Shown in pieces: positions 19,244 through 23,638 of a DNA stretch of 64,000 bases. The stretch comes from Methanosarcina thermophila TM-1 (GTDB lineage: Archaea; Halobacteriota; Methanosarcinia; Methanosarcinales; Methanosarcinaceae). The translations under genes and the position numbers were made by a program. Location of the stretch: NCBI RefSeq assembly GCF_000969885.1, contig NZ_CP009501.1, positions 2,804,908-2,868,907 of the forward strand. Direction: 5' to 3'. Numbering within the stretch: the first letter of the stretch is position 1; every line of letters starts with the position of its first letter. The notes beneath the pieces were generated by a model, which was not told the origin of the DNA, ran no database searches, and saw nothing but the letters and a program-made list of their open reading frames with translations.

Positions 19244-20374
19244 TCATTCCCTGAGTATAAGGGTGCCTGCCAGGATACATCCATTTGCGATAAATAGTTT
19301 CTCAAAACTCATAACATCTGTAAAAAGCCCTGCAATAATCGGGGCAAGAGAGAGCCCTGCATAAATAGTTGTGTTAAAAAGCCCCATTGCAAGACCCCTG
19401 TCAGCATTCATTCTGGCGACAGCCAGTGCAAAACCTACAGTTGCGACCCCAGCTCCTCCTCCAAGGCTTGAGAATCCAAACAGAGGATATTTTATTGCAA
19501 AAAGAACCCCAAGCGCGGAAAATCCCATCCCGATTCGAATTAAGGTTTTTTCATTTACTTTAAAATGCCCTCCAATCAGGGAGGCAACCATTGTACAGAC
19601 ATAAAGGCTGGAAATTGAGATCCCAAGCTGGGCTTTTGTTATAGTGCCGAAGCTATAATCTGGATAGTAAGCTACAAGCACTCCAATGGCTCCGTTAAGC
19701 AGGAAGGAACTGAGCCAGAGACCTGAGTTCCCACGATTCAGGAGCTCCTTAATTTCCCTATAAGGCTTTCTGAAAAGGTCAGAATTTTCTGGAACCTTAA
19801 ATATATCCTCTTTCCCTTTGCTCTCAGGGTCAACCAGCCCTCTGTATTTGGAAATCAGATAAATGGTCAAAAGGAAAGCGATGATTGTAAAGATAACAAT
19901 TGCTCCTTTAAGGTATGTATCTGCCAGCATCCCTGAGAGAAAGGCTCCTGCTGCCAGGCCGCCATTAAAAAGGAAAACAAACTCCCCTATATAGCGCCCC
20001 GGATTCCTGAGTTTTGATAACATTGTAAAGGCGGCAGGTAAAAAGGCTCCACAGGCAAAACCTTCTATCAATCTTGCAATCAAAAGGATCCATAGGTTTT
20101 CGGAGAGCAGAATAATCAATCCTGAGATAGCCGTCAAAATGATGCCCAGTCCTATGAACTTTAAATTTCCGAACTTGTCCGCGAGAATCCCAGATGGAAG
20201 CATTGTTCCTAGGGCTCCGAGGAAATAAGCTGAAAAGAGCATGCTTGAGGCAAGTCCTCCAGAGTAGAGATTACTCAGATCCGCAAGCTCCGGAAGGATG
20301 GGGATAACAGCATTAGAGAGCCCCATTATCGTAAAAGCCGCTCCATAAATTAAAAAAAGCCTGTGAAAGTTCAT
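19244..20374 (-). CDS. MFS transporter (upstream tandem copy)
   Basis: A 376-residue permease with about 12 helices, colinear with its neighbour: MGLSNAVIPILPELA at the first helix, GILADKFGNLKFIGLGII as the MFS signature, RLIEGFACGAFLPAAFTM, and AGLSLAPIIAGLF near the C-terminus. Substrate unknown. Both copies share these motifs at the same positions but differ widely elsewhere, so the duplication is not recent. A long untranslated region with a G-rich element lies upstream. Confidence 0.88.
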   Translation of the reverse strand: MNFHRLFLIYGAAFTIMGLSNAVIPILPELADLSNLYSGGLASSMLFSAYFLGALGTMLPSGILADKFGNLKFIGLGIILTAISGLIILLSENLWILLIARLIEGFACGAFLPAAFTMLSKLRNPGRYIGEFVFLFNGGLAAGAFLSGMLADTYLKGAIVIFTIIAFLLTIYLISKYRGLVDPESKGKEDIFKVPENSDLFRKPYREIKELLNRGNSGLWLSSFLLNGAIGVLVAYYPDYSFGTITKAQLGISISSLYVCTMVASLIGGHFKVNEKTLIRIGMGFSALGVLFAIKYPLFGFSSLGGGAGVATVGFALAVARMNADRGLAMGLFNTTIYAGLSLAPIIAGLFTDVMSFEKLFIANGCILAGTLILRE

Positions 20375-20667
20375 AGCACTAAAAACCCTTAATTAAGTAT
20401 ATAGTTTCTTGTCACGGCAGTTCTCTAAAATCTGTCTCCTGATGCTAAAAATAGCTCTGGTAAACCTTTAAAGGCTTTATTCAACTATTGACAGGATTTC
20501 TAGCTTTTACATATTTTGGTCTATACTAAGAAAATTGGGCTTAATTCTCAATCACTGCTTGCTACTGAAATAACACCGCTTGCTACTGAAATATGACTCT
20601 TTTATTATAATAATCCGGATCGAATGCATAGCTATTTATATAATTAGTTTGAATAGGGATATTTGTG

Positions 20668-20750
20668 AGTAATGTGAGCGGGAATCTTTTTTTCACATAC
20701 CATACCCCCCACTCCCCATATGACCCCCCACTCCCCAACCCGCTCACACT
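20668..20750. ncRNA. Predicted structured element: G-quadruplex tract in 10-bp stem
   Basis: A perfect 10-bp inverted repeat (TGTGAGCGGG at 20673-20682, CCCGCTCACA at 20739-20748) encloses two 15-bp direct repeats of ACCCCCCACTCCCCA (20704-20718 and 20723-20737). The minus strand of this loop has four G-runs of 4-6 with loops AGT, TCATAT, AGT, a strong G-quadruplex pattern. TATA-like sequences flank it on both sides: TATTTATATAATT at 20633-20645 for a plus-strand RNA starting near 20668, and a weaker one near 20766-20774 for a minus-strand leader of the MFS genes. No reading frame. A small RNA or leader element is inference. Confidence 0.45.
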
Positions 20751-20777
20751 ACTTCTACTTATAGTTTAATAAATAGC

Positions 20778-20844
20778 ATTAGAAATCCTTTTCTTATTTT
20801 TTTCAGGCTTTATTAGAAATCCTTTTCTATTTTTTTCAGGCTTT
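20778..20844 (+). repeat. Tandem 34/33-bp direct repeat with T-runs
   Basis: Two copies of a block from ATTAGAAATCC to TTTTTTTCAGGCTTT lie end to end (20778-20811, 20812-20844), differing by one T. Each has a long T-run, as an archaeal terminator would. They follow the G-rich element. The rest of 20375-21130 is AT-rich without a gene. Confidence 0.7.
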
Positions 20845-21130: not shown

Positions 21131-23626
21131 TTATTCTTGATGATCAACAGCCGGTTCCTTCAATATTTCTCTGCTGGAACTCTCGCTCCGTAGAGGAATT
21201 CTCATTCCATAGAATGAGCGCCAGACAAAGATTAGCGCAACCACAAGGAACGCGCCGCCTACATAGAGAGCCATATTTCGGAATAACTCCGAGATAGCAA
21301 TCTCCATTGCCAGCAGGCCAAACAGCGTAGTAAACTTGATAATCGGGTTCAGGGCTACTGACGAGGTATCTTTAAATGGATCACCTACAGTATCACCGAC
21401 TACGGTTGCCGCATGCAAATCTGTGCCTTTTTCCTCAAGGTCTACTTCCACGACTTTTTTAGCATTATCCCAGCATCCACCAGCATTTGCCATGAATACG
21501 GCCTGGAACAGTCCGAACACAGCAATAGAGATCAGATATGAGACAAACAATGATACAGAGTCGTTCCCGGCTATGGGAGCAGAGAGGCAGGAAAACGCCA
21601 GAGTAAAGGAGAATATGGCAATGAATATATTGAACATACCCTGTTGTGCATACTGGGTGCAGATTTTTACCACTTCTTTTGATTTTTCCGTAGCTGCTTT
21701 CTGGCTGGCATTCTCATCAAGCTGTATATTACTCTTGATATATTCAACTGCCCTGTAAGCTCCGGTTGTAACGGCCTGGGATGATGCTCCGGTAAACCAG
21801 TAAATTACAGCACCGCCTGCTATTAATCCGAAGATGGTATAGGGATTGAGCAGGGTCAGGATTTCTTCAGGCTGTACTCCGAGCACGTCCCTAATAACGA
21901 GAATTAAAGAAAAGATCATGGTTGTGGCGCCAACTACGGCTGTGCCTATTAAGACCGGTTTGGCTGTGGCTTTAAACGTGTTTCCTGCTCCGTCGTTAGC
22001 TTCCAGATAGTGTTTTGCCCTATCGAAATCCGGCTTGAACCCGAATTCTCTCTGAATCTCCTCCTTTATTTTTGGAATGGTCTCTATGAGCGACAGTTCG
22101 TAAATGGATTGGGCGTTATCCGTTACCGGTCCGTAACTGTCAACTGCTATGTTAACGGGACCCATGCCCAGCATTCCGAAAGCCACCAGACCGAATGCAA
22201 ATATTGAGGGATAGATCATTATCTCACTTAAGCCGTGCCCACTGGCATAATAGGCAACAAACATGAGTGCGAAGAATACCATGCCGATCCAGAATGAACT
22301 GAAATTACCTGCGACCAGTCCGGAGAGGATATTGAGAGATGGTCCACCTTCACGGGAAGCTTTGACGACCTCAGCTACGTGCCGGGAATTCGGGCTTGTG
22401 AATATCTTTGTAAACTCGGGAATTAAAGCTGCTCCCAGAGTCCCGCAGCTTATTATTATTGAAAGCACTAGCCAGAGATTCTGCAATTCGGCAGGTGTCT
22501 CGGCAGAACCCGGACCCAGCAAATAATAGCTTATGGCAAAGGTTACTGCAATGGAGAGAATGGAAGTGATCCATACCAGGCTTGTAAGGGGCTGTTCAAA
22601 ATCAAAATCGTCTTTGTTGCCGAACCGTGCCTGGCTGAGAGCTCGATTGATGTAGAAAGAACATATGGATGTAAGTATCATAAGTATGCGCATGACAAAA
22701 ATCCAGGTAAGCAGGATGCCTGTCAGATCGGGTTGTACAGCCAGGACAATGAAGGTAACAAGGGCTACACCGGTTACGCCATAGGTTTCAAATCCATCTG
22801 CGGTCGGACCTATGCTGTCACCTGCATTATCTCCTGTACAGTCGGCAATCACACCGGGATTGCGCGGGTCATCTTCTTTTATTCCAAAGACTATTTTCAT
22901 CAGGTCGGAACCGATATCTGCGATCTTGGTGAATATTCCACCGGCAATACGTAAGGCGCTGGCTCCAAGGGATTCTCCTACTGCAAAACCTATAAAACTT
23001 GCTCCAGCCAGCTCCCTGGGAACAAACAGCAGTATAATCAGCATCATTATCAGTTCAACGCAGACAAGAAGCACGCCTATGCTCATTCCTGCATCAAGAG
23101 CAATGTTTAAGATCTTGAGGGGTTTCCCTTCCAGGGAAGCAAAAGCAGTTCTGCTGTTAGCGAGGGTATTCATACGGATTCCGTACCAGGCGACACTGTA
23201 TGACCCAAGTATCCCGATTATGGTCCAGGCTAGGATGAGCAATACCCCGCTTGGAGGCATTCTCTGAAGGAAACCAAAATAAAAGGCTATGGACAAGCCG
23301 ATGAAAATAAATAATATGCACAGTAGCTTACCCTGCTGAATAAGATAGGTTTTACAGGTTTCATAAATTGTATTAGCCACGTCCAGCATAGACTGGTGGG
23401 CTCTTATTCTTTTCACCTTTGTAAACTGATAAAACCCGAACAGCATACCTAATATACAGACTACGATACCCCAGAGCAGTAAATTATTCTGTCCCTGGCT
23501 CAAATTCGGAATTTTAAGATTCGCTTCACTGGCAGCTGCTATTGCTGGTGTTAGCGACAGTATGGTCAGGCTAAATAAGCCTTCAAGCGTCGCCTTGACC
23601 ACCCTATCTTTCATTACAATCACCAT
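21131..23626 (-). CDS. hppA: Membrane-bound pyrophosphatase, divergent K+-independent type
   Basis: An integral-membrane ion pump driven by pyrophosphate hydrolysis, about 16 helices. I choose ATG 23626; GTG 23638 and ATG 23614 are also possible. At ~831 residues it is long: an N-terminal signal-like extension and a longer loop before GNTFKATAK. The Lys in that motif marks K+-independent enzymes. EDDPRNPGVIADCTGDNAGD and [11 protein letters not shown] are intact, but the usual [11 protein letters not shown] site is DIGSDLMKIVF, one residue shorter to EDD and without the Glu. This suggests the divergent, probably proton-pumping clade. It is divergent from the second pyrophosphatase gene; two such genes are known in Methanosarcina mazei. 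Confidence 0.92.
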   Translation of the reverse strand: MVIVMKDRVVKATLEGLFSLTILSLTPAIAAASEANLKIPNLSQGQNNLLLWGIVVCILGMLFGFYQFTKVKRIRAHQSMLDVANTIYETCKTYLIQQGKLLCILFIFIGLSIAFYFGFLQRMPPSGVLLILAWTIIGILGSYSVAWYGIRMNTLANSRTAFASLEGKPLKILNIALDAGMSIGVLLVCVELIMMLIILLFVPRELAGASFIGFAVGESLGASALRIAGGIFTKIADIGSDLMKIVFGIKEDDPRNPGVIADCTGDNAGDSIGPTADGFETYGVTGVALVTFIVLAVQPDLTGILLTWIFVMRILMILTSICSFYINRALSQARFGNKDDFDFEQPLTSLVWITSILSIAVTFAISYYLLGPGSAETPAELQNLWLVLSIIISCGTLGAALIPEFTKIFTSPNSRHVAEVVKASREGGPSLNILSGLVAGNFSSFWIGMVFFALMFVAYYASGHGLSEIMIYPSIFAFGLVAFGMLGMGPVNIAVDSYGPVTDNAQSIYELSLIETIPKIKEEIQREFGFKPDFDRAKHYLEANDGAGNTFKATAKPVLIGTAVVGATTMIFSLILVIRDVLGVQPEEILTLLNPYTIFGLIAGGAVIYWFTGASSQAVTTGAYRAVEYIKSNIQLDENASQKAATEKSKEVVKICTQYAQQGMFNIFIAIFSFTLAFSCLSAPIAGNDSVSLFVSYLISIAVFGLFQAVFMANAGGCWDNAKKVVEVDLEEKGTDLHAATVVGDTVGDPFKDTSSVALNPIIKFTTLFGLLAMEIAISELFRNMALYVGGAFLVVALIFVWRSFYGMRIPLRSESSSREILKEPAVDHQE

Positions 23627-23638
23627 TTTGCCGATCAC

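Follow-up and report, generated by a model that had tools for sequence, protein, structure and literature searches.

The RNA gene described here is most readily compared with a group of bacterial small RNAs and with several sRNAs of Methanosarcina mazei. The alpha-r14 sRNAs carry an ultraconserved anti-Shine-Dalgarno (anti-SD) sequence, CCUCCUCCC, in the unpaired regions of otherwise unlike hairpins (PMC10746234). They are the "cuckoo" sRNAs of the alpha-proteobacteria (NfeR1 group; PMC10746234, citing Reinkensmeier & Giegerich 2015). Reports on M. mazei credit sRNA162, sRNA154 and sRNA41 with masking ribosome-binding sites (RBS; PMC3510493, PMC5867862); the last of the three reportedly does so inside polycistronic ACDS mRNAs (Buddeweg et al. 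2018, as summarised in PMC5867862). sRNA162 is 191 nt long and has three stem-loops and a single-stranded linker, which is its most variable part; BLAST returned homologues from M. acetivorans and M. barkeri only (PMC3510493). In the literature compared, archaeal base-pairing sRNAs have mostly been treated genus by genus; the family presented here covers a class of methanogens and methane-cycling relatives.

The locus studied lies in a 64-kb stretch of Methanosarcina DNA (the window, meaning the whole of the DNA analysed). Its RNA resembles the alpha-r14 sRNAs in showing a constant C-rich motif unpaired while the stem sequences are free to vary. However, the alpha-r14 sRNAs are bacterial and have three hairpins with a true anti-SD CCUCCUCCC, whereas the methanogen RNA has a single end clamp, one or two copies of CCCCCACUCCCC with a U-run ahead of them, and TATA promoters of the archaeal type. 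Neither CCUCCUCCC in hairpin loops nor a three-hairpin layout was found in it, and homology is not claimed. The likeness to sRNA41 lies in the genus, in the intergenic position and, if the mechanism proposed below is correct, in RBS masking as reported for sRNA41; it is possible that the window RNA or a paralogue is identical to sRNA41. sRNA162 and sRNA171 provide a further parallel, in that an archaeal sRNA pairs with an RBS through a single-stranded region and that sRNA loci are duplicated (PMC3510493); in contrast to sRNA162, the window RNA is built on one clamp, its loop is invariant and it is spread over the class. Searching Rfam 15 with the window locus at E≤1 gave two unrelated sub-threshold matches elsewhere and none to the RNA, and 20 loci with other family members yielded only tRNA and a PYLIS_5 element at the gathering cut-off. 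The structured class-wide family and its anatomy appear to be new. No description of this family was found in the literature compared, outside which lay the 2009 M. mazei dRNA-seq catalogue and the primary sRNA41 paper; a Methanosarcina copy may already be numbered in these.

Anatomy of the locus

On comparative grounds, the interval 20634-20765 of the plus strand almost certainly encodes, as a gene in its own right, a small non-coding RNA some 90-100 nt long. Alignment with relatives established a TATA-type promoter, a covarying end clamp of 10-11 bp, a large loop predicted to be unpaired and a multi-copy family found class-wide. The parts of the gene and its neighbours are listed below.

19244..20374, minus strand: MFS transporter gene, divergent neighbour, outside the RNA (PF07690, E 2e-37)
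20600..20633, plus strand: block next to the promoter on its upstream side, TTATTATAATAA...GAATGCATAG, conserved in part within the genus
20634..20646, plus strand: TATA box TATTTATATAATT of the RNA gene, conserved in the genus, with TATA-like boxes across the family
20663..20672, plus strand: likely transcription start region, placed from the TATA spacing
20673..20682, plus strand: closing stem, 5' arm TGTGAGCGGG, pairing from 20668; complementarity and covariation
20687..20693, plus strand: loop U-run, possible Sm-like protein site; U-run common across the family
20704..20718, plus strand: first C-rich motif ACCCCCCACTCCCCA, invariant in the genus
20723..20737, plus strand: second C-rich motif ACCCCCCACTCCCCA, the 3'-most copy and the one common to other genera and families
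20739..20748, plus strand: closing stem, 3' arm CCCGCTCACA, pairing to 20753; complementarity and covariation
20749..20765, plus strand: short conserved 3' tail with T-rich DNA after it; identity drops past 20764
21131..23638, minus strand: membrane H+-pyrophosphatase gene, convergent neighbour, outside the RNA (PF03030, E 1e-182)

As the original prediction had it, the arms are a perfect 10-bp complement, the two C-rich repeats between them are identical, and a TATA-like box precedes the left arm, its end lying 27 nt from the start of the arm. Pairing of the stem lengthens to 15 nt at 93% (20668-20682 with 20739-20753), and the enclosed loop is 56 nt long, with the sequence AAUCUUUUUUUCACAUACCAUACCCCCCACUCCCCAUAUGACCCCCCACUCCCCAA. 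The 3' end of the RNA probably falls within 20749-20765. Perfect 10-bp inverted repeats with a loop of 40-70 nt are not rare in themselves, the window having 11 against 2.5 expected. Folding of the present hairpin beat that of shuffled sequences (z -2.8, 1/200), and in the predicted fold of the plus strand only the stems are paired and the loop is open.

An outer inverted repeat is also present (20631-20646 with 20762-20777, 81%); its right arm showed no conservation in 25 other Methanosarcina genomes. In this genome the RNA gene is bordered by two short direct duplications, one of 20 nt and one of 25 nt (20553-20593 and 20778-20836), and the sequence there is unconserved. A MITE or other mobile repeat was considered and rejected: a DNA search of the window's own genome gave one copy, the paralogues are diverged, and the right side of the outer repeat is not conserved.

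Conservation, covariation and strand

Conservation was profiled in the same 25 genomes, whose assignment to Methanosarcina is backed by named records; the strand was fixed by the C-motif since the hairpin is palindromic. Conservation was restricted to the TATA box, the stem and the loop. Identity reached 99% in the TATA block (20630-20644) and 100% over some 45 nt of the loop (20690-20734), linkers included. Mean identity was 74-79% in 20600-20629; on the 3' side it fell from 98% to 76% and then to about 41% past 20764. In the flanks left of about 20600 and right of 20764 it was mostly 10-55%, and most of the stretch farther upstream of 20600 stood at 2-57%. The original prediction had staked itself on conservation of the arms and the G-runs in relatives, and both are kept in Methanosarcina.

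The main covariation alignment, A7, comprised 104 distinct rows fitted to the model, among them about nine opposite-strand rows. In this alignment 92.5% of the cells pair, and 9 of the 11 pairs have changes on both sides. Compensatory cells numbered 154. Shuffled alignments had 52.5 (none of 500 reached 154), and slid versions did not exceed 39. Compensatory changes thus exceeded both the shuffled and the slid controls, as expected for a structured non-coding RNA. Smaller MAFFT alignments agreed with A7 on covariation; their slid controls favour structure, since the members had been picked partly for a visible stem. The excess of G.U cells (36) over A.C cells (11) in the stem points to the plus strand as the RNA.

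Of 115 members, 100 had a TATA-like box no more than 60 nt ahead of the stem, as opposed to 25 of 115 when the upstream sequences were shuffled. In 94 members the distance was 26-41 nt, which is the behaviour of a structured RNA that has a promoter of its own at fixed spacing. The loop contained a run of four or more U in 111 of the 115. Together, these data bear out the suggestion that a small plus-strand RNA starts at the hairpin, just downstream of the TATA box, in that the stem covaries and is conserved along with the box and the loop. A small ORF was rejected as an explanation: loop lengths differ among the members, so that no frame is kept.

Distribution of the family

Sequence matches to the 3'-most C-motif and the 3' arm were found far outside Methanosarcina, the shared architecture being a TATA box, a stem, a U-run, (CACUAA)CCCCCACUCCCC and the returning stem, with stems that differ. 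In the loop, the U-run is followed by CCCCCACUCCCC, in two copies at the window locus and in one copy in most members; in other genera the single C-motif reads CCCCCACTCCCC. Covariance model R1, built on 13 sequences, had matches in 175 of the 186 order genomes and in 188 of the 192 class genomes; among good genomes the figures were 117 of 118 and 150 of 151, respectively. We take the class to be the Methanosarcinia. Model R2, run over 393 genomes of the phylum, matched 94 class genomes, G120 being the sole class genome listed without a match, and gave weak matches in seven genomes outside the class. Matches outside the class were rejected in f27, where they resemble GC-rich coding DNA, and in G311 and G458, where the family architecture is absent. 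In the sister lineage f15, three matches of 73 nt have a TATA box, UGAGCGGGU...ACCCGCUCA, a U-run and a loop that is C-rich but different; a pattern search recovered this form in 4/4 f15 genomes seen, and the stem retains GAGCGGG despite the diverged loop. Judged by this architecture, the f15 matches are divergent but genuine members of the family. No credible member was found in the small class genomes G119-G124 (g22), G135-G136 (g23) and G186 (f6), an apparent loss or a diverged form, and no plasmid-borne copies of the family were found.

Copy number is usually 1-5 and is higher in genus g12 of family f5, presumably a Methanoperedens-like group. One genome of this genus (G105; loci L229 and L126) had 29 matches at E≤1 and 18 at E≤0.01, several of them clustered a few hundred bases apart. 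The window's own genome has at least four members, the window locus included. Members 2 and 3 are found at C1:2204563-2204629(+) and C1:22697-22775(-); the fourth, near C1:1059690(-), has an unrelated stem, GGCATCTGAG/CTCAGATGCC. The latter copy belongs with loci L221-L226 to a subfamily in which the stem is GGCATCYGRG / CYYRGATGCC and the loop, with its U-run and C-motif, is unchanged. Across the family the stems change completely (GAGCGGG, GGGCAGG, GGCAUCYGRG) while the loop motif is constant: a 12-nt motif stays nearly unchanged while compensatory mutation swaps the sequence of the clamp.

Possible modes of action

The joint reading of an RNA gene and an RBS-masking mechanism is one towards which we lean, with some reserve. 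The RNA would be transcribed from its archaeal TATA-type promoter, and the clamp formed by its own ends would hold the C-rich motifs single-stranded. The U-run might dock an Sm-like (Lsm/SmAP) protein, and the C-rich motifs would base-pair with mRNAs at their G-rich ribosome-binding regions, so repressing translation. With its two motifs, the Methanosarcina RNA would make contact at two sites. RBS masking is our leading proposal because of the display logic of alpha-r14 and the masking reported for the M. mazei sRNAs. In the case of sRNA162, added Lsm proteins were without significant effect on in vitro binding (PMC3510493). Among the ORFs of the window, the loop preferred RBS over intragenic windows (Mann-Whitney p 0.0018). 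This preference is compositional, since shuffled C-rich oligos did equally well or better: over the 45 ORFs of the window, the mean for the loop against the RBS was -10.0 kcal/mol and that for shuffled loops -10.9. Complementarity to the RBS of these 45 ORFs did not rise above that of a composition-matched oligo, a result that leaves room for individual targets. The 16S rRNA of the same genome ends in GATCACCTCC and the loop is without CCUCC, so the motif is not an exact complement of the SD core. The family provides a testable handle on target finding by archaeal sRNAs and on the involvement of Sm-like proteins, in a genus, Methanosarcina, that is genetically tractable.

The linkers that separate the motifs vary no more within the genus than the motifs themselves, and this exceeds what simple SD pairing requires. 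The clamped U/C-rich loop might instead recruit or sequester a conserved RNA-binding protein, with no pairing to mRNA. CsrB/RsmZ-type sponges and Sm-ring RNPs bind proteins in such a manner. Besides the complete invariance of about 45 nt of loop in 25 genomes, this reading would accommodate a C-motif nearly constant class-wide, though single mRNA targets should drift, as well as the up to 18 copies per genome and the persistence of the GAGCGGG stem in f15, where the loop is diverged. It also agrees with the fit of the loop to RBS and rRNA, the best duplex with the own rRNA-operon stretch being, like the RBS score, no better than those of shuffled loops. However, the stem sequence is not strictly fixed in the class, as the GGGCAGG and GGCAUCYGRG variants attest, and the M. 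mazei sRNAs studied so far work through pairing. We consider a pure protein-binding role rather unlikely and keep it under consideration because of the complete linker invariance in the genus. Somewhat more broadly, and tentatively, the RNA could represent an undescribed, near-universal non-coding RNA family of the Methanosarcinia and a sister lineage, in which a covarying end-clamp holds out an invariant U-run and C-rich loop to a single conserved partner, either a protein or an RNA. It would then be a housekeeping-like archaeal RNP as opposed to a stress sRNA of the usual kind; in one lineage it would have been multiplied up to 18-fold, and a provirus may use it as an integration site.

That each copy acts in cis on the next gene downstream, as a 5' leader or attenuator, seems quite improbable, even though in one synteny class a Pyr_redox_2 gene follows the RNA on the same strand at a distance of 68-239 nt (family f2, Methanosarcina paralogue 2 and G032). 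At the window locus gene orientation refutes it: the next gene is convergent and no plus-strand gene follows the RNA. Elsewhere the copies occur in unrelated gene contexts, many of which have no same-strand gene downstream, and the Pyr_redox_2 genes themselves have no G-rich SD with which the loop could pair in cis. A role in the leader of the MFS gene, or as a switch for it, had been suggested as well and found no support. The RNA does adjoin the MFS gene in Methanosarcina and in two sister genera, but it is on the opposite strand to that gene, the G.U pairs favour the plus strand, and paralogues and relatives sit beside unrelated genes. The Pyr_redox_2 genes that follow the RNA are NADH-oxidase-like and occur in two families of the order (copies L064, L065, L067, L089, L090, L098, L099, L101-L103, L105, L131-L133, L136 and L139).

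On the minus strand, the C-rich repeats read GGGG-AGT-GGGGGG-TCATAT-GGGG-AGT-GGGGGG, with the runs of 4/6/4/6 and loops of 3/6/3 that had been pointed out at the outset. The pattern, which had been called rare, is the sole G4+ motif in the 64-kb window (42.5% GC), and Markov-1 copies of the window give 0.000. A quadruplex as a working part of the element did not hold up. An intramolecular quadruplex on the other strand requires four C-runs on the RNA strand, and only 40 of 115 members have them; most carry one C-motif (two runs), and the pattern is missing in about two thirds. An element acting at the DNA level (a G-quadruplex, a protein-binding palindrome or an intergenic terminator) would fit the lone G-run motif and the palindromic arms but is hardly credible in view of the scarcity of four C-runs among members, conservation that takes in the TATA box at steady spacing, G.U pairs retained on one strand, and a loop conserved along its whole sequence, beyond the G/C runs.

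Tandem copies, family f4 and a provirus-like contig

In Methanosarcina, diverged copies of the form GTGAGCGG...CCGCTCAC stand in tandem near a tRNA gene, two or three to an array (L130, L137, L140 and L230); the loops of neighbouring copies in these arrays are strongly unlike each other. In family f4, the sequence CCACCTCC, which matches the 16S anti-SD core, lies directly 3' of the 3' arm in 5/5 copies (L152, L155, L157, L170 and L174). A provirus-like contig (L249; IMGVR_UViG_3300037264_009246) carries a family member at 2049-2111 (E 2e-9), with 10 nt between the 3' end of this member and the end of an integrase gene of phage type (2121-3512). tRNA genes often serve as attachment sites, and the arrangement looks as if the RNA gene were the attachment site of this element.
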